From Victivallales bacterium (GTDB lineage Bacteria; Verrucomicrobiota; Lentisphaeria; Oligosphaerales; Oligosphaeraceae), in the NCBI GenBank assembly GCA_017963875.1, contig JAGCTA010000314.1, positions 1 to 5,927 on the forward strand: a DNA stretch of 5,927 bases, given 5' to 3'. Positions within the stretch are counted from its first letter, which is position 1, and every line of letters starts with the position of its first letter. Position numbers and translations under genes: made by a program. The notes under the pieces are model-generated. The model searched no databases. It worked only from the letters and a program-made list of their open reading frames with translations, and was not told where the DNA came from. Below, in pieces: positions 1 to 5,567 of the stretch.

Positions 1-485
1 CGGTACACCTCGTAGGAGTCCATCAGGTCCGCCAGCTTGTCCGCCAGCTGCCACGTCATCGCCGCCTGCTTCTGTTCGGTGACCGCAACTGCATCTGCGG
101 AATCCGAATTCATGATGTACTTGCGGAACGGGGCGAGCTTGGCATACTCCTCCTGTTCCTCCGGACCCGCCAGCAGGATGGACACGATCGCCTTCGCGTA
201 GGCATGGTCTGGCAGAAGTTCGACGTCCGCCCGATCTTTCGGCGACAGCCCCGCCATCATCAATTCCGTCAGCTCCTTCTCCATAAACGGAAACTGGATG
301 CCCGCGCAGAGATCCGGCTCCTTGGCGAACATCCGTATCTGCAGCCACTTCGCCAAATTGCCGTTCGGCACCACGACCTTGGTGAACACAAACGGGTCCT
401 TGCCCTGCCGCTCCTTCAACAGGCGTTCTTTCAGCTTCTCCGCCAGATCCTCGATCCGGCTTCCGCAATAGATCTTCAATGACAT
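1..485 (-). CDS. recC: RecC, exodeoxyribonuclease V gamma subunit (N-terminal part, runs off the left edge)
   Basis: RecC is the subunit of the RecBCD helicase-nuclease that recognises Chi and helps split the DNA duplex during double-strand-break repair and degradation of foreign DNA in the cytoplasm. Only about 161 N-terminal residues are present, of the roughly 1,100 usual for the family. The start MSLKIYCGSRIEDLAEKL, then DPFVFTKVVVPNGNLAKWLQ, then AGIQFPF at about residues 62-68 and a later MTWQLADKLADLMDSYEVYR follow the RecC N-terminal pattern (short beta start, 'WLQ' motif, 'I.FPF', then 'W.L...L....D.Y..YR' before the cut). The ATG at 485 is well supported by AAGGAG seven bases upstream. 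It lies 40 bp downstream of the HD-domain gene on the same strand, so the two are probably co-transcribed. recB and recD would be expected further left but cannot be seen. The assignment is by recalled family pattern, not by a search. Confidence 0.82.
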   Translation of the reverse strand, partial: MSLKIYCGSRIEDLAEKLKERLLKERQGKDPFVFTKVVVPNGNLAKWLQIRMFAKEPDLCAGIQFPFMEKELTELMMAGLSPKDRADVELLPDHAYAKAIVSILLAGPEEQEEYAKLAPFRKYIMNSDSADAVAVTEQKQAAMTWQLADKLADLMDSYEVY

Positions 486-525: not shown

Positions 526-1122
526 TCAGCTCCTCGCCTCGACGAGGTGAGAGGCCAGAGTGTCGGCACAGCTGATGAGCGTCACAAGCGGCGACTTGTC
601 ACCCGCTGCCGCGTAGTTGCCACGGGCTTCAGGCGAATCTGAGATGTCAAACGCCGACATGTGCCATCGGATTGCCAGCATCTCCTCGTCGGTCATCTCA
701 AGACCAAAGCGTAGCAGCCTTATCACCGATTTCTCGCCATGCCCCATTGGGAAGTCCGAGTAGTCGACCCCGTACGTCGTGTACTTCTCCCACTTCCCGT
801 CCTTCCCCTTGCGAGACTTCTCGACTTCCTTGTAGACCTCGGCCTTGCAGACGTCATGCAAAAGCGCCGCAATCGCCACGCTCGCCTCAGGCAACTCCTC
901 CGCAAGCGAGGGACTTAGCCCAATCTCCATGCCACGCAGGGCCATCGCCTGATCATATACGTTAAGCGAATGGGCAAGGAGACCGCCCTTCTCCGCGCCA
1001 TGAAAGCGCGTAGAAGCCGGCGCGTCAAAAAAACCGAGTTCCTCAAGTCCAGCCAAAACGGCGTCGACTCCGCTCCGCCCAGTCGCCTTAAGTGCTTCAA
1101 TGAATCTATCCTTGTTCTCCAT
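526..1122 (-). CDS. HD-domain metal-dependent phosphohydrolase
   Basis: This is a 198-aa cytoplasmic protein of the HD superfamily, whose members hydrolyse phosphate esters of nucleotides using bound divalent metal. Visible signature residues: H51 in GGLLAHSLNVYD, the H89-D90 doublet in AALLHDVCKAEVY, H128 in MGHGEKSV, H154 in IRWHMSAF, and a late D187 in LISCADTLASH. This order (H, HD, H, H, D) fits a single catalytic HD domain spanning most of the chain. The preceding FFDAPASTRFHGAEKGG is typical of a common HD-hydrolase family of bacteria and phages. The natural substrate is unknown. I chose the ATG at 1122 because AAGGAG lies directly upstream (4-nt gap); in-frame ATGs at 1146 and 1149 lack a ribosome site. 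A promoter lies at 1166-1195. It precedes recC by 40 bp, which suggests a two-gene or longer operon. Confidence 0.85.
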   Translation of the reverse strand: MENKDRFIEALKATGRSGVDAVLAGLEELGFFDAPASTRFHGAEKGGLLAHSLNVYDQAMALRGMEIGLSPSLAEELPEASVAIAALLHDVCKAEVYKEVEKSRKGKDGKWEKYTTYGVDYSDFPMGHGEKSVIRLLRFGLEMTDEEMLAIRWHMSAFDISDSPEARGNYAAAGDKSPLVTLISCADTLASHLVEARS

Positions 1123-1195: not shown

Positions 1196-1218
1196 CCTTC
1201 GTACCCATAAGATTTATA

Positions 1219-1266
1219 TTTGTGATTTGTGAACAATTGTGGCAATTGTCATTTGTGAACAATCTC
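1219..1266 (-). repeat. Dispersed 48-bp intergenic repeat, copy 1 (full form)
   Basis: Plus-strand reading: TTTGTG, then the 13-mer ATTTGTGAACAAT (1225-1237), a 13-bp insert TGTGGCAATTGTC (1238-1250), the same 13-mer (1251-1263), then CTC. ACAATTG and CAATTGT around TGG give a 7-bp hairpin with a 3-nt loop. It is identical to copy 2 over 48 bp. Each 13-mer contains the near-palindrome TTGT-GA-ACAA. This copy lies between the HD-hydrolase promoter and the end of the 267-aa gene, and is followed on the plus strand by the 26-bp repeat at 1284-1309. Confidence 0.9.
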
Positions 1267-1283
1267 AAATCCCTCGCTATGTA

Positions 1284-1309
1284 TAACGCCATCGAGGATG
1301 TTTTCTTAC
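1284..1309 (-). repeat. 26-bp companion repeat, copy 1
   Basis: The 26 bases from TAACGCC to TTCTTAC are identical to 5542-5567. In both places the repeat sits at the same distance from the end of the dispersed repeat: CTCAAA, then 14 poorly conserved bases, then the 26-mer. On the minus strand it lies just past the stop codon of the 267-aa gene. It contains CATC-GAG-GATG, a short stem, but no T-run follows, so it is not a standard intrinsic terminator. Role unknown. Confidence 0.8.
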
Positions 1310-1327
1310 GATTTTGGCCGTGGCATC

Positions 1328-2131
1328 TCACGCCATGGTGGCGCACCACGTGTCATCCTCTCGGGCAATCTCGCGCCATGCGTCCAATACGAAATCAATC
1401 TTGCCGCAGTCGTGCCGCTTCAGATACTCTGAAAAGGCCGCGACATCAATCGTCGTAGGATTGTCTTCGGACAATCCCAGGCCGCAATAGGCGAGATCCG
1501 CCTTCGGCACTTGCGTCTCGAGAACGCATATCCAACCGTCTTCCCGCTTAGACACCAATGCCGAATCCCGCAGATAGACATTCACATTCTTCATATCCGT
1601 GCGCCGCGAAGAGCTGGGGGGACGTGCCGAACAGGAAAACGGCTCGACAATCCCGTTTCGCAGCCAATTGGACTCTTCCTGCTCAAAGGCAATCAATTCC
1701 AGAGCCTGAATGGCCTTGTTTATGGGCACTATGCCCAGCTGATAGGTGCGTTGATCCACACTCCCGTCCTTAAGTTGCCTCTTCCATGCTTTCCGTTCGG
1801 CGACGAGCGCCTCCACATACTTTTGCACAATGCCTATCCGCCGCTTCGCCTCCCGTCGGCGAGCACTCACTTCGTCCGGATGCGAAGAAATCCACCGTCC
1901 TTGCGCCACGAGTTCCTCAAGCAGTTCCCAGGCGGCCTTTTTCCAGTACTCGTTGGCCGTATATGTCCATGGGGACATGAACATGATGTGGCGTCCTGCA
2001 TGCAGCCCGGGATACGGGGAAAGCAGCTCGACGGAAATGTCTTTCGCCCAGTACCGGCACTTCGCCTTGACCGGCGTTCCATCGGCTAAAACGCCTTCAA
2101 TCGTCACGTCAATTTCTTCTGCCGCGTTCAT
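1328..2131 (-). CDS. Unknown 267-aa protein, possibly a two-part chimera
   Basis: I do not recognise this protein. It has no signal peptide or membrane segment, so it is probably cytoplasmic. Residues 1-80 look like a compact mixed domain (IDVTIEGVLADGTPVKAKCRY, later SPWTYTANEYWKKAAWELL). Residues 86-160 are charged and helical (SARRREAKRRIGIVQKYVEA), with coiled-coil potential. Residues 166-178 are a low-complexity stretch, CSARPPSSSRRTD. Residues 180-267 look like a second globular part beginning MKNVNVYLRDSALVSKREDG. The linker includes a run of six C on the coding strand, and an internal ATG at 1594 begins the second part without a visible ribosome site, so an old frameshift or fusion is possible. 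The start at 2131 is fixed by AAGGAG eight bases upstream. Its whole block lies between repeat copies 2 and 1. Function unknown. Confidence 0.75.
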   Translation of the reverse strand: MNAAEEIDVTIEGVLADGTPVKAKCRYWAKDISVELLSPYPGLHAGRHIMFMSPWTYTANEYWKKAAWELLEELVAQGRWISSHPDEVSARRREAKRRIGIVQKYVEALVAERKAWKRQLKDGSVDQRTYQLGIVPINKAIQALELIAFEQEESNWLRNGIVEPFSCSARPPSSSRRTDMKNVNVYLRDSALVSKREDGWICVLETQVPKADLAYCGLGLSEDNPTTIDVAAFSEYLKRHDCGKIDFVLDAWREIAREDDTWCATMA

Positions 2132-2155
2132 TTCAGTTTCTCCTTCGTATTTGCA

Positions 2156-2203
2156 TTTGTGATTTGTGAACAATTGTGGCAATTGTCATTTGTGAACAAT
2201 CTC
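2156..2203 (-). repeat. Dispersed 48-bp intergenic repeat, copy 2 (full form)
   Basis: Identical to copy 1 over 48 bp. The 13-mers are at 2162-2174 and 2188-2200. It fills the gap between the reading frame that continues past the SLOG gene's stop (ending 2206) and the ribosome site of the 267-aa gene (start 2131). The repeat therefore forms nearly the whole 5' region of that gene. I see no convincing -10 box inside it on the minus strand. Confidence 0.9.
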
Positions 2204-2205
2204 CG

Positions 2206-2256
2206 TCATTTCACATACCCCTTTTCTCGTAAAATAGCATCTACAGCATCATCATC
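2206..2256 (-). other. In-frame coding-like tail beyond the SLOG gene's stop codon
   Basis: Directly after the TAA at 2259-2257 the same frame stays open for 16 codons, reading DDDAVDAILREKGYVK, and then ends with TGA. The tail is protein-like and in phase, which suggests the SLOG gene once ended here and that the TAA is a recent nonsense change. The alternatives are chance, or a leftover gene end brought in by recombination. Repeat copy 2 begins within 3 bp of the second stop. Confidence 0.4.
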
Positions 2257-2871
2257 TTACTCTCCTATCCAGTCCGATGAAATCCATCCGCAAAGCGATC
2301 CATCGTCGTCGATCTGGCAGATGTCGCCGCCGGACCCGTTGCGGAACATCACGAATACATGGAGAAGCGCTTTCTTCGCTTTTTCGAAAATACCGGGCGA
2401 AACGGATTCCCGCAGGCCCGCGACATTGAGTACAACCTGTTTCTTCTCCATAGGAACCGTGCTTTCAAGCGAAAGCATCCACTCGCGTATCTGCACATCC
2501 ACATCTTCCGCATTGAGGTCAACGGCCTTGCATGGCTTGCCTCGCTTGGCAGCATATTCGGCCGTGTATGCCGTTCCGCCAGACAGCAGAAGCCTGTCAA
2601 CGAGAATCAACGTCGCGTCGGCGCTGTCCACGTTTGCGCGGGTACGCTCGCGGTAGCCGCCGTCGCATTCCCGCAAGGCATAAAAGTTCTCCGGAACAAC
2701 GCCGTCCTCGGCAAGGCGCCCCTTCGGAACCCATCCGCCAAAGGGAATGCAGTACGACATCGCAGCGACAAGGCCGGCTCGGTCTACGCCGGTCTGCCCG
2801 CCACTGATGATTTTCCAGGGCCGCTTGTTGACGCTCCTCGGCACCCGCAGCAATGTAACGTCTTCTTCCAT
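2257..2871 (-). CDS. cpYpsA-type SLOG family protein (MoCo-carrier-like), with a C-terminal extension
   Basis: The SLOG superfamily has Rossmann-like proteins that bind nucleotides or nucleotide-derived ligands. This subgroup is annotated as putative molybdenum-cofactor carrier and is also proposed to act in nucleotide sensing and conflict systems. Visible motifs: KIISGGQTGVDRAGL (20-34), GGWVPKGRLAEDG (45-57), YRERTRANV (73-81), LSGGTAYTAE (96-105) and VVLNVAGLRESVSPG (146-160). These cover the full usual fold (about 150 residues). Residues 172-204 (FVMFRNGSGGDICQIDDDG and on) are an extra tail I do not recognise, and the frame reads on past the stop. Start ATG 2871 lies 4 nt after the TAG of the upstream BspA-like fragment and has only weak GGGA ahead, so translation is probably coupled to that upstream reading. 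It is the last gene of the block between repeat copies 3 and 2. Confidence 0.82.
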   Translation of the reverse strand: MEEDVTLLRVPRSVNKRPWKIISGGQTGVDRAGLVAAMSYCIPFGGWVPKGRLAEDGVVPENFYALRECDGGYRERTRANVDSADATLILVDRLLLSGGTAYTAEYAAKRGKPCKAVDLNAEDVDVQIREWMLSLESTVPMEKKQVVLNVAGLRESVSPGIFEKAKKALLHVFVMFRNGSGGDICQIDDDGSLCGWISSDWIGE

Positions 2872-2875
2872 GTCC

Positions 2876-3155
2876 CTATTTGGCTTCTTCGATTGAAATC
2901 CTCGACAAGTCTACTTCCGCATCCGCGAGCAACTTCTGCACCCGTTCAGCATCTCCAGCGGATACCCGCACCGTCAGCGTACTGGAACGCCCAGGTACCG
3001 ATGCCGGTCACCGCGCATCCGCCGAGCTTATCGGGTATCACCACCTCGCCTTCGGGTTCAGGCGATGGCTTGCCGATGATTTCTGCGGTTCCATCGTCCT
3101 TGATTTGGTACGGCCAACTGTAGCCGCCAACAGTCTCAATCCGTTTCTCGGTCAT
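2876..3155 (-). pseudogene. Frameshifted, truncated BspA-like leucine-rich-repeat protein
   Basis: From ATG 3155 (AAGGAG seven bases upstream) the frame reads YSWPYQIKDDGTAEIIG, then GEVVIPDKLGGCAVTGIG and TWAFQYA. This is the characteristic first unit of BspA-type (LRR_5) proteins, which usually have many such repeats and are often surface-exposed. It meets a stop after 66 residues. The neighbouring frame is open from about 3000 down to the TAG at 2876 and reads STLTVRVSAGDAERVQKLL, then ADAEVDLSRISIEEAK, a plausible protein C-terminus. The total span of 280 nt is not a multiple of three, in line with one frameshift near 2975-3000. Only one repeat unit survives between the two ends, so an internal deletion has probably occurred as well. 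No signal peptide is visible. A real short protein made only from the first frame cannot be excluded. Confidence 0.65.
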
Positions 3156-3211
3156 TGCTATTCTCCTTGTCACACATATTGTCTATAGAAAACCTTTTTG
3201 GACATGAAAAA

Positions 3212-3700
3212 TCACATGGCATGGCCCTGTGTCCCCGTGCGGAGCAGGATCCACTTGCGGAACCACTCCGGCTCGTTCGCGATGCTGTCGGCAAGTGCCT
3301 TGATCCGGCGCTTGCCAAGGCGCGCGTCCAGGACGGCAAGCAGACGGATGAAGTAGTTGTCATGCGCAACCGCCTCGTCGATGGACAGCTCGTTCAGGTA
3401 CTGGTGGATGTATTCCAAGGCATACATTCCATCCTCGCAAGGGACTTTCCCTGTCTCGCGTATTATGTCAACGTCTTTCGGTTCAGGATTATAGCACTTG
3501 TACTTCTCGATCCAAAACCCCTGGTTGGTGCAGAACCAAGGCGTGCCATCCACAAGAATAGATATCACATGAGCCTCGGCATACCAATCTGGCTTGACGG
3601 GATGCTTCTTTCCACGATATACATCATAGTGGTAGCAAACCCTTCCTTTCAGGTCATCCGCCAATCTGCTTTCCAGCACCTGTCTCGTCTTACTCCACAT
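3212..3700 (-). CDS. SF0329-family protein
   Basis: This 162-aa soluble protein resembles the SF0329 family of small, poorly characterised bacterial proteins. The opening MWSKTRQVLESRLADDLKGR with a following Y.VYR matches the family's 'WSK....LES.L...LKGR....Y.YR' start, and the end IRLLAVLDARLGKRRIKAL...EPEWFRKWILLR matches its typical 'LA.LD.R.GKRR' C-terminus. Members often sit in accessory or toxin-immunity-type regions, but no biochemical role is established that I know of. The ATG at 3700 has GGGAG eight bases upstream; the frame stays open further upstream only because it runs through the repeat. It is the first gene of its block, right after repeat copy 3, and 56 bp ahead of the BspA-like fragment. 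Its 5' end is duplicated at 5391-5471. Confidence 0.72.
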   Translation of the reverse strand: MWSKTRQVLESRLADDLKGRVCYHYDVYRGKKHPVKPDWYAEAHVISILVDGTPWFCTNQGFWIEKYKCYNPEPKDVDIIRETGKVPCEDGMYALEYIHQYLNELSIDEAVAHDNYFIRLLAVLDARLGKRRIKALADSIANEPEWFRKWILLRTGTQGHAM

Positions 3701-3706
3701 CTTTCT
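3627..3706 (-). repeat. 80-bp duplicated gene start, copy A (in the intact SF0329-family gene)
   Basis: Bases 3627-3706 match 5392-5471 at 79 of 80 positions (the difference is T versus C within CCAAT/CCAAC). The copy covers the first 24-25 codons of the SF0329-family gene and 6 bp before its ATG. Similarity weakens through the ribosome-site region and returns at ATTTGCC plus the dispersed repeat, so the homologous tract extends to about 3784 with a diverged middle. Confidence 0.92.
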
Positions 3707-3736
3707 GTCTCCCGTCTGACCTCTCCTTGATTTGCC

Positions 3737-3784
3737 TTTGTGATTTGTGAACAATTGTGCCAATTGTCATTTGTGAACAATCTC
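3737..3784 (-). repeat. Dispersed 48-bp intergenic repeat, copy 3 (full form)
   Basis: Same layout as copies 1 and 2 with one change: the central insert reads TGTGCCAATTGTC instead of TGTGGCAATTGTC. The change falls in the hairpin loop, so the 7-bp stem is kept. The 13-mers are at 3743-3755 and 3769-3781. It occupies the gap between the SF0329-family gene start and the end of the tandem-repeat-protein gene. Confidence 0.9.
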
Positions 3785-3789
3785 TGACA

Positions 3790-3803
3790 ATTCTACATTC
3801 TAC
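3790..3803. repeat. Two tandem ATTCTAC units
   Basis: ATTCTAC occurs twice in a row and is followed by the near-match ATTCATG, between repeat copy 3 and the stop codon of the 294-aa gene. It may be a slippage product. No function is evident. Confidence 0.7.
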
Positions 3804-3805
3804 AT

Positions 3806-4690
3806 TCATGATGTTTCTCCCTCCCTTTCATCTTCTGGAGGCAAACCTTCTTTTTTAAGACGCGCATAATATCTTTTCGTCACCACATCACCCAATCCGC
3901 TCCAATCAATCTTGGATTCATCAACGTACTCCATGATGCGGGGCTGGACGCGGAGCAGAAAGCGTCGGACGGTTTCGCTGAGCTTGTCCCATTCGCAGTG
4001 GCCGACATACTGCGGCTGGAGCTCAAGCAGCTTACCCCAGCCCCAGTCATCCAGGCTCGCCCAGTCAAGATGCTCTTCGAATTGCGGTTGATGCCCAAGA
4101 AGGAGTCCCCAATTCTCGCCTGACAACTTTGTCCAATCGCAGAATTCAGCAAACTGGGGCTGATTGGACAGTAGCCTCGCCCAAGCCAACCCATCCAGTT
4201 TCTGCCAACATTCTCCGTCGGCATACTTGGCAAGGGCCGGCTGACTTGAAAATATCATCCACAGCCAACCGCTGTCCAGCTTCTTCCAGTCGCAATACTG
4301 TCCGTACTGCGGGCTTTCCTTGAGCAAGCAGCACCAGTTAATGCCATCAAGCCTGTCCCATGCGACATATTTCGCCAAGGAAGGATGTTTCCTGAGAAGC
4401 GTCAACACCGAGTGGCCGGGCATCCTTTCCCAATTGCACTTCTCTGCAAATTGCGGTTGCCGTTCCAGAAGATATTCCCAGCCGCAGAATTCCTTGTAGC
4501 ATTCGTAAGGCAGCAGATTCCACGGACACTTGTCGGCGAACTGCGGCAGTTCGGACAGCAGCCTTACCCACTCGTCGCCGGTGAGTTTCAGCCAGTCGTC
4601 CCGTCCACATTGCTCTGTCGTTTCCGGCTTCTCGAGGATGAGGTCCGCCAGTTCCTCGGCGGACAAGTCAGGGTCTATTTCTTTTTTCAT
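3806..4690 (-). CDS. Trp/Leu-rich tandem-repeat protein (about nine 24-residue repeats)
   Basis: This 294-aa protein is nearly all tandem repeats, at about residues 33-57, 58-87, 88-111, 112-135, 136-162, 163-186, 187-210, 211-234 and 235-258. The core unit is 'KL.G..W..LL..QPQFAE.CDW', for example at TKLSGENWGLLLGHQPQF. Repeats 2 and 5 carry small insertions. Each unit probably forms a helix pair, building a curved alpha-solenoid suited to protein binding. The Cys and Trp just before each unit boundary are strikingly regular. The N-terminus (EIDPDLSAEELADLILEKPE) is acidic, and no signal peptide or membrane segment is visible. I recognise the repeat style from gut PVC-type genomes but know no function. 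ATG 4690 has AGGGG upstream and overlaps the end of the 231-aa gene by 23 bp, so the two are probably translationally coupled and may work together. Confidence 0.78.
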   Translation of the reverse strand: MKKEIDPDLSAEELADLILEKPETTEQCGRDDWLKLTGDEWVRLLSELPQFADKCPWNLLPYECYKEFCGWEYLLERQPQFAEKCNWERMPGHSVLTLLRKHPSLAKYVAWDRLDGINWCCLLKESPQYGQYCDWKKLDSGWLWMIFSSQPALAKYADGECWQKLDGLAWARLLSNQPQFAEFCDWTKLSGENWGLLLGHQPQFEEHLDWASLDDWGWGKLLELQPQYVGHCEWDKLSETVRRFLLRVQPRIMEYVDESKIDWSGLGDVVTKRYYARLKKEGLPPEDEREGETS

Positions 4691-5363
4691 TCTTTTCCCC
4701 TATTCTTTTCCATAGTTTTCCCAACTTCCCGGCGACCTTCTTCAGCAAAGGTTTGTGCCGCTCCAGCACCTGGGCCTTGAATGCGTCTTCATGGTCCGGG
4801 TCTATGTTCTTCAGGCGCATGACGACTTCGAGGAGCGAATACGCCTCGAAACGCCTCCGTTCCGCGAGATACCGCATATGCGCATCGGAGAATTCCTTCA
4901 CCAGGTTCAAGAAGATTCCGAGGGACTGCAACGGTACGAGCGAACCGTCCTTCGCGATGGCCTTGCTCACGTTCGCCCCGCTTAGCGGACTCCCGCTCAC
5001 GAAGTACGCAAGTTCATCCTTCCCGCGCCGTAGCCACCATTCGATATATGTGCCTACCGTCGGCTTCACGAGCGCACCGATATAGGCCGCCCCGCTCATG
5101 ACATTGACCGGCGTCAGGAACATCCTGCTGTCCGCGAATATCCGCTCCCTGTTCTCAAAAATAAAGTGCGCGTAATCCTTGAAAAGGTTACTGTCGAGAC
5201 GCTGCGCATCCTCATCCGGCCACGCAAACACCGCATCGTCCGGCTTCTCCCTGGGATATCCCTGAAGAACCATGCCGTTCTCTATCGTGAATTGATTGCT
5301 GCCGTCCGCAACCGCTTGAGTGACATCAGGCACACGAAACGTTTCTACATTTGCTGCAATCAT
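4668..5363 (-). CDS. Unknown 231-aa protein
   Basis: I do not recognise this protein. Visible features: an N-terminal beta-rich part (NVETFRVPDVTQAV, GSNQFTIENGMVLQG), a central stretch FLTPVNVMSGAAYIGALVKP (82-101) that is mildly hydrophobic but probably not a membrane span, a YIEWWLRRGKDELAYFVSGS motif (106-125) followed by PLSGAN, a helical segment at 145-190, and a very basic C-terminus (HKPLLKKVAGKLGKLWKRIG, then KNEKRNR) that might bind nucleic acid or be an amphipathic helix. The start at 5363 is supported by AAGGA seven bases upstream. It follows the truncated SF0329 start by 27 bp and overlaps the downstream tandem-repeat gene by 23 bp, which indicates one transcript. Confidence 0.75.
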   Translation of the reverse strand: MIAANVETFRVPDVTQAVADGSNQFTIENGMVLQGYPREKPDDAVFAWPDEDAQRLDSNLFKDYAHFIFENRERIFADSRMFLTPVNVMSGAAYIGALVKPTVGTYIEWWLRRGKDELAYFVSGSPLSGANVSKAIAKDGSLVPLQSLGIFLNLVKEFSDAHMRYLAERRRFEAYSLLEVVMRLKNIDPDHEDAFKAQVLERHKPLLKKVAGKLGKLWKRIGEKNEKRNRP

Positions 5364-5390
5364 CTCTCCATCCTTCCTGCAGTCTACATC

Positions 5391-5465
5391 CTAGTGGTAG
5401 CAAACCCTTCCTTTCAGGTCATCCGCCAACCTGCTTTCCAGCACCTGTCTCGTCTTACTCCACAT
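5391..5465 (-). pseudogene. Truncated SF0329-family gene start (24 codons)
   Basis: ATG 5465, with AGGAG eight bases upstream, opens a frame reading MWSKTRQVLESRLADDLKGR, then VCYH and TAG. The first 24 residues are identical to those of the intact gene at 3700. The intact gene continues CACTATGATGTA where this copy has CACTAGGATGTA, and similarity then fades. It is best read as the stump left when recombination replaced the rest of the gene with the 231-aa gene. Because its ribosome site and ATG survive, it could still be translated as a short upstream peptide; the next ATG is 27 bp beyond its stop, so it may affect translation of the 231-aa gene. Confidence 0.75.
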
Positions 5466-5471
5466 CTTTCT
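5392..5471 (-). repeat. 80-bp duplicated gene start, copy B
   Basis: Matches 3627-3706 at 79 of 80 positions, in the same orientation and about 1.77 kb away. Homology resumes upstream at ATTTGCC and the short repeat copy 4, so the copied unit probably included its 5' repeat. Confidence 0.92.
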
Positions 5472-5502
5472 TACTCCTGCCTAAACACTCCTTGGATTTG
5501 CC

Positions 5503-5524
5503 TTTGTGATTTGTGAACAATCTC
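5503..5524 (-). repeat. Dispersed intergenic repeat, copy 4 (short form)
   Basis: This copy has TTTGTG, a single ATTTGTGAACAAT (5509-5521), then CTC. It lacks one 13-mer plus the 13-bp insert, exactly 26 bp, compared with copies 1-3. The flanking sequence aligns on both sides: ATTTGCC as in copy 3, and CTCAAA as in copy 1. Confidence 0.88.
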
Positions 5525-5541
5525 AAAGTCCTCATTTTGAT

Positions 5542-5567
5542 TAACGCCATCGAGGATGTTTTCTTAC
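5542..5567 (-). repeat. 26-bp companion repeat, copy 2
   Basis: Identical to 1284-1309 and in the same position relative to the dispersed repeat. It shows that the short copy 4 here and copy 1 belong to one larger element of roughly 65-95 bp. Confidence 0.8.

Follow-up and report, generated by a model that had tools for sequence, protein, structure and literature searches.

What does a short repeat signify when its copies lie, all in one orientation, between the genes of an accessory locus? The question is raised by a 5,927-nucleotide stretch of DNA from a Victivallales bacterium (contig JAGCTA010000314.1; the whole stretch is called the window), in which a 48-bp repeat occurs in three full copies and one short form. 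An earlier note on this DNA had read the locus as a modular array whose gene blocks are exchanged by recombination at the repeats. We conclude that each of the four repeats very probably is one arm of a palindromic element, non-autonomous and dispersed among bacteria related to Kiritimatiellae, and not the boundary of an exchange module. Genomes and loci are given below by our own handles (G003, L034 and the like).

Anatomy, spread and insertion of the element

The complete element is an imperfect inverted repeat made of an arm, a variable loop and an inverted arm. It spans ATTGTTCACAAAT to the reverse complement of ATTGTTCACAAAT and measured 97-134 bp in 20 copies. The arm is ~52 bp long and is built of CAAAT/CAATT words, among other short-period repeats; most of the 25 solo arms that were aligned have CAAAT or CAATT at their end. 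The window copies are solo left arms, like 22 others hand-picked for the arm alignment. In 17 aligned full elements the arms paired over 29 positions, 25 of which were identical in all 17 sequences, and variation lay in the interior loops and the loop. As the stem hardly varies, only one double change was found among the 29 pairs of the consensus structure, and covariation gives it no support. The ends are sharp: many pairs of non-orthologous loci can be aligned only over a stretch that starts at about the first base of the element and stops at 105-140 nt. For copies in G001 and G013, likeness extended by eye at most ~48 nt upstream and 17 nt downstream, and identical 104-bp elements were present on separate G001 contigs.

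Two further features of element copies were observed. In L071-L087 (G001, G013), a common GC-rich stretch, a GAGG resembling a ribosome-binding site (RBS) and an ATG or GTG precede the element, and in some copies this start codon opens a short reading frame into it. In L035, L037, L121 and L124, a solo arm forms a composite with other dispersed word repeats, CACAAAGA words standing before it and TTCTACATG words after it.

An exact pattern with two free bases recovered 22 stretches in 13 of 84,980 species genomes. Allowing up to 3 mismatches in those 13 genomes gave 91 places, against 0 for a reversed control. The record titles name Kiritimatiellae, Verrucomicrobia or Lentisphaerae for 15 of the 22 loci and 'uncultured bacterium' for the other 7; five titles also name the sample (sheep rumen, roe deer and goat omasum, yak rumen). 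A 21-nt end word, with at most 1 mismatch, occurred 45, 47, 51, 16, 27 and 2 times in G001, G003, G006, G011, G012 and G017, these being word matches in which one element may count more than once. These counts differed even among close relatives: the recC starts of G003, G017 and G011 are 88-92% identical to that of the window, yet their end-word counts are 47, 2 and 16. Run on 387 genomes drawn from the phylum, with no more than ten candidates scored in each, a full-element model matched 7 at E <= 1e-6. A slightly longer 33-nt pattern had 0 matches in a viral collection, and a scan of viral contigs with the HD protein of the window gave a single 39% match and no lead. No description of such an element in Kiritimatiellota was found in the literature, judging from leading titles only. 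By the searches made, the repeat is a new family of a known kind of element.

Comparison of empty and occupied sites demonstrated that the repeat itself moves. Downstream of a gyrB-type gene, the empty site in G006, G011 and G007 consists of the stop codon, 13-14 nt and the next ATG. In G003 a full element lies between the stop codon and the RBS, and in G012 a left arm is followed by other DNA; the remaining 8 of the 13 orthologs examined do not show this gene junction. Upstream of ackA, a solo arm is present in G003, G006 and G012, where the first A of the arm completes the stop codon of the preceding gene. G011 carries a separate, degraded copy in the same spacer and the same orientation. 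The other 13 of 17 have no copy here, with a readable empty site in G007 and G018.

Placement was scored on 80 of the 91 places together with loci added later, whose 123 copies fell into 83 flank clusters. By the gene calls, 53 clusters were intergenic and flanked by genes on either side, and 21 were intragenic (15 sense, 6 antisense). Four of the 53 lie in open frames (UxaC of G003, the L035 frame) and were removed. In the resulting 49 sites both neighbouring genes were co-oriented with the copy 32 times and both anti-oriented 5 times (p ~7e-6 for 32 vs 5), with 7 co/anti and 5 anti/co sites. Leaving out the window gave 29, 5, 7 and 5, respectively. The bias was present in full elements alone (18 co/co vs 4 anti/anti) and in solo arms (14 vs 1). 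Where the upstream gene ended at most 10 nt before the element or within its first 15 nt, 19 of 20 copies followed a co-oriented gene, and 22 of the 26 copies at most 40 nt from a downstream start were co-oriented with that gene. Either selection against the opposite orientation or an insertion route tied to transcription could produce such a bias, and we leave the choice open.

The earlier note had allowed that copies scattered beside core genes, without block variation between strains, would be an ordinary repeat. This is mostly the picture obtained. Copies are indeed dispersed in related genomes; they adjoin core genes (by Pfam, the direct neighbours include gyrB-type, ackA, trkA and phosphomannomutase genes) and also lie inside metabolic genes. 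No gene block was seen to move as a unit; what moves is the repeat.

Copies inside genes were followed by alignment with orthologs. UxaC (glucuronate isomerase) of G003 carries two in-frame inserts, which read LFTNDNCHNCSQITN or LFTHDNCHNCSQITN, stand in two different loops and are flanked by pieces of other repeats; UxaC of G010 carries one arm insert. UxaC of G011, G007, G029, G014, G001 and G017 is without these arm inserts, some of these proteins having other inserts. A decarboxylase of G012, which we take to be NspC-like (Pfam gives the PLP decarboxylase family), holds an arm in a loop that is short or holds other inserts in relatives. A glycyl-radical enzyme (L120) and a glycosyltransferase (L100) have one copy each within or between Pfam domains, without ortholog comparison. 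It would seem from these sequences that working genes sometimes hold copies without being broken. Separately, the in-frame peptides inserted in two loops of the NspC-like decarboxylase were seen to differ from genome to genome (L200-L213), and several of these peptides are short-period repeats.

The window locus and its chimeric fourth copy

In the window, self-comparison gave family matches at 1212-1275, 2149-2212 and 3730-3793 (86-100% over 64 nt). Inspection by eye shows no difference between the 48-mers at 1219-1266 and 2156-2203 and a single-base change in that at 3737-3784; from the short form at 5503-5524, precisely one 26-nt unit of the internal direct repeat ATTTGTGAACAAT is missing. 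The repeats described in the earlier note are real: a 15-mer word with at most 2 mismatches matched 7 times where 0.02 matches were expected, and 0 of 200 shuffles got to 7. All copies as first drawn lie on one strand and the eight called genes all on the opposite, minus strand, which gives a single polarity relative to transcription. A more fitting unit is a gene-strand arm of 52-53 bp. On that strand a window copy has the sequence ATTGTTCACAAATGACAATTGCCACAATTGTTCACAAATCACAAAT, with one base changed in copy 3, and is placed after one gene and before the next. The features of the window are as follows.

3-485, minus strand: start of a recC-like gene (Exonuc_V_gamma), the anchor for comparing relatives
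526-1122, minus strand: HD-domain gene, of which G003 keeps the 3' end only
1211-1263, minus strand: copy 1, solo left arm (gene-strand polarity), between the 284-aa open reading frame (ORF) and the HD-domain gene
1328-2131, minus strand: called gene of ~267 aa (284 aa from a TTG start), no Pfam family
2148-2200, minus strand: copy 2, solo left arm, between the cpYpsA gene and the 284-aa ORF, 17 nt ahead of the called gene start
2257-2871, minus strand: cpYpsA-family (SLOG) gene
3212-3700, minus strand: SF0329-family gene, internally deleted in its G003 version
3729-3781, minus strand: copy 3, solo left arm, 24 nt past the stop of the 294-aa gene and ahead of the SF0329 gene
3806-4690, minus strand: 294-aa gene, no Pfam family, whose C-terminal piece recurs in G003 behind a short-form copy
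4668-5363, minus strand: 231-aa gene, no Pfam family
5385-5494, minus strand: duplicated SF0329 gene start (remnant), a copy of 3620-3729
5495-5521, minus strand: copy 4, short arm minus one 26-nt unit, with chimeric flanks (copy-1 type upstream, copy-3 type downstream)
5522-5567, minus strand: upstream flank of copy 4, a duplicate of the copy 1 upstream flank (1264-1309)

Pfam named recC (start), HD, cpYpsA and SF0329 among the nine window ORFs scanned, and 5 of the 9 had no family. No integrase was found among these nine, and one may lie outside the window. The claim of the earlier note that a copy stands at the start of every gene block is partly circular. Four of eight gaps carry one (counting seven between the eight called genes and one upstream of the 231-aa gene); the recC/HD, cpYpsA/75-aa, 75-aa/SF0329 and 294-aa/231-aa gaps do not. 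The duplicated gene start that it had reported was recovered (3620-3729 and 5385-5494, 92%), and a second duplication that it did not mention flanks copies 1 and 4 (1246-1309 and 5504-5567, 88%). An Rfam scan of the window gave zero matches. Single-strand folding of the solo arms gave nothing beyond the shuffles for three of the four sequences folded; copy 1 on its minus strand did somewhat better (z -1.8).

The orthologous place in G003 is contig 177 (L034), where recC is 92% identical. The copy-3 region is common to the window and G003 (97.8% over 316 nt, plus the start of the next gene). Gene content between recC and this region differs, so the locus is variable. In addition to the altered SF0329 and HD genes, G003 has the 75-aa gene in extended form, a large gene resembling an ATPase by eye and another gene ahead of recC; it is without copies 1 and 2. 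Alignments between the two loci end at window positions 3931, 3616/3252, 2983/2979, 2917, 658 and 529/512. These ends sit 113-750 nt from the nearest window copy, and none falls inside one. One end, at L034 2188, is no more than 36 nt away from a short-form copy present in G003 and not there in the window, which leaves some room for the array view. The C-terminal piece of the 294-aa protein (window 3806-3931; L034 2123-2312) recurs in G003 as a small ORF that follows a short-form copy, and the G003 locus has two more pieces similar to it.

Copy 4 is chimeric. Its upstream flank matches that of copy 1 at 36 of 43 nt, versus 9 of 43 for each of copies 2 and 3, and its downstream flank is 92% identical to that of copy 3 over 110 nt; an ungapped count of the downstream flank (36/117 vs 33 and 37) misses this likeness because the register slips. 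The 26 nt missing from copy 4 equal the period of the internal repeat. Copy 4 looks like the crossover product of a copy-1-like and a copy-3-like copy, because one crossover between two copies explains the upstream match, the downstream match and the 26-nt loss. In such an event the first 13-mer of one copy would have recombined with the second 13-mer of another, yielding a chimera together with the 26-nt-shorter form.

Alternative explanations

Could the copies nevertheless be recombination points, site-specific or not, that bound gene blocks gained, lost or swapped as units? The chimeric copy 4, the strong difference between the window and G003, the alignment end 36 nt from a short-form copy and the one orientation common to all copies speak for this reading. 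It is nevertheless improbable, with the window/G003 alignment ends well away from the window copies, half of the gaps without a copy, no integrase among the nine ORFs, and single copies beside core genes and inside genes. The evidence for exchange divides: a chimeric copy and a variable locus stand, and a breakpoint in a window copy does not. We give about as little chance to a regulatory role, in which the arm would be an operator, leader or mRNA-stabilising hairpin kept before the genes of a regulon. Polarity with transcription, proximity to the next gene, stems that are conserved while their interior loops vary, and the ATG that opens a short frame in some copies would suit it; yet the neighbouring genes are functionally unrelated, the same gene lacks a copy in close relatives, and copies also lie inside ORFs. 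Weak promoter-like matches (9 of 12 bases) overlap a single window copy, copy 3, and do so on both strands; this result was not used.

Least probable is that word-like repeats of 7-9 nt arose independently by slippage, the copies being similar by convergence and not by descent. The arm is made of short words amid other short-period repeats, and the short form reflects the loss of one 26-nt unit; however, the long identical copies on separate contigs largely refute this origin, and the sharp ends and the clean insertion relative to empty sites also speak against it.

We prefer the account by a palindromic element. Copies would insert at new places through an enzyme supplied in trans and would persist where harmless, mostly between a stop codon and the next RBS in one-way runs of genes, and also in frame in protein loops. 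The look of punctuation in an all-one-strand accessory locus would follow from this persistence between one-way genes. An existing copy could then serve as homology for an occasional crossover, as may have happened at copy 4, without delimiting exchangeable modules.

Several points weigh against this account. Target duplication exceeded 1-2 nt nowhere at the ackA site (by eye), and one 7-nt candidate, at L081, makes no consistent duplication. No transposase or parental insertion sequence (IS) with these ends was found, Y1_Tnp alone having been sought. Solo arms may be remnants of full elements rather than units of insertion. Reading frames that stay open for 60 codons or more to either side run through 21 of the 83 copies in sense and through 13 in antisense, and 6 of the 21 copies called intragenic are antisense; therefore only the aligned in-frame cases are firm. 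The placement counts come from a home-made gene caller that missed UxaC of G003 and was hand-corrected at 4 sites, and they take adjacent copies in one locus as separate sites.

RAYT-type proteins (REP-associated tyrosine transposases; REP, repetitive extragenic palindromic) were considered as mobilisers. Their Y1_Tnp domain had matches in 14 of 14 genomes. Of the 30 of these Y1_Tnp places that were examined, 0 had copies on both sides and 4 (L138, L264, L266 and L270, the last two orthologous) had one copy on one side within ~1.1 kb. At the Y1_Tnp place of G010:C39 an arm lies ~0.6 kb away in the same UxaC ORF. We leave a RAYT mobiliser open and do not reject it. As a side observation, at L264 1409-2713 (G006:C170) a RAYT-like gene is followed, ~100 nt past its 3' end, by a full element, which is a lead, not evidence. 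Another is that a RAYT-type (Y1_Tnp) frame is fused in frame inside the UxaC ORF, in the same loop, at L121 499-2769 (G010:C39) and L249 (G017:C98). The two stretches (query 67-421) are 77% identical, some UxaC included, and six other aligned UxaC sequences are without the frame. A Pfam scan of this ORF at E <= 1e-5 gives UxaC only, and Y1_Tnp passes its own cut-off in the separate Y1_Tnp search.

A bolder version is a long shot: that the element inserts in sense, with polarity set by transcription, into the post-stop gap or coding loops, so that insertion would proceed via mRNA or transcription-exposed single strands and would repeatedly have given core enzymes of these bacteria new loops in frame. 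What the palindromic element adds is a mobile family in a little-studied group of gut bacteria, and a case in which apparent punctuation of gene blocks can come from insertion tolerance alone.

Comparison with known systems

As to an integron cassette array, in which an integrase accompanies cassettes bounded by attC sites, no integrase was found among the nine window ORFs, though one may lie outside, and copies of the repeat adjoin core genes. The element is close to miniature inverted-repeat transposable elements (MITEs), of which Coxiella QMITE2 and ERIC are described in excerpts of PMC10969869 and PMC5896051 as AT-rich, <500 bp and bounded by terminal inverted repeats; in the same excerpts QMITE2 lies mainly at gene 3' ends with small overlaps, and its truncated forms resemble REPs. 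The window family is likewise AT-rich, 97-134 bp long and has ATTGTTCACAAAT inverted ends, and so falls within the bounds of short (<500 bp) elements with terminal inverted repeats of about 4-30 bp. A possible difference from MITEs is that no consistent target duplication was seen and no parent IS identified, the search having covered Y1_Tnp only.

REPs and bacterial interspersed mosaic elements (BIMEs) occur as single arms and inverted pairs near the 3' ends of unidirectional genes and are sometimes intragenic, notably in the verrucomicrobium Opitutus terrae, according to the portion of PMC3733652 consulted. The window family shares with these and with REPINs the single arms, the inverted pairs, the gaps between unidirectional genes and some intragenic copies. 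In contrast, its arm is long and AT-rich, GTAG/CTAC occurs in 0 of 42 aligned copies, and CGTC/GACG in 1 of 42, anywhere in the sequence. As for the RAYT gene that accompanies REPs, copies flank none of the 30 Y1_Tnp places examined on both sides, and the four noted above on one side. Because the GTAG and CGTC tags are lacking, we do not file the element as a REP of the GTAG/CGTC class.

Another close parallel is the Rickettsia palindromic element (RPE), which the excerpts of PMC10969869 and PMC3733652 describe as palindromic, ~150 bp, dispersed and lying in frame in unrelated genes, to which it adds a peptide. The window family is also palindromic and dispersed, and lies in frame in unrelated protein genes (twice in UxaC of G003, in UxaC of G010 and in the NspC-like decarboxylase of G012). 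Its host belongs to a different phylum and is not rickettsial, and most of its copies were called intergenic. None of the 25 solo arms and one of the 17 full elements has the CGTC tag reported for RPE, a comparison that covered the tag alone. By this analogy the element appears to work like RPE without being filed as one, and its aligned cases of in-frame enzyme lengthening make the RPE-type idea, that DNA parasites add segments to proteins, testable outside Rickettsia.

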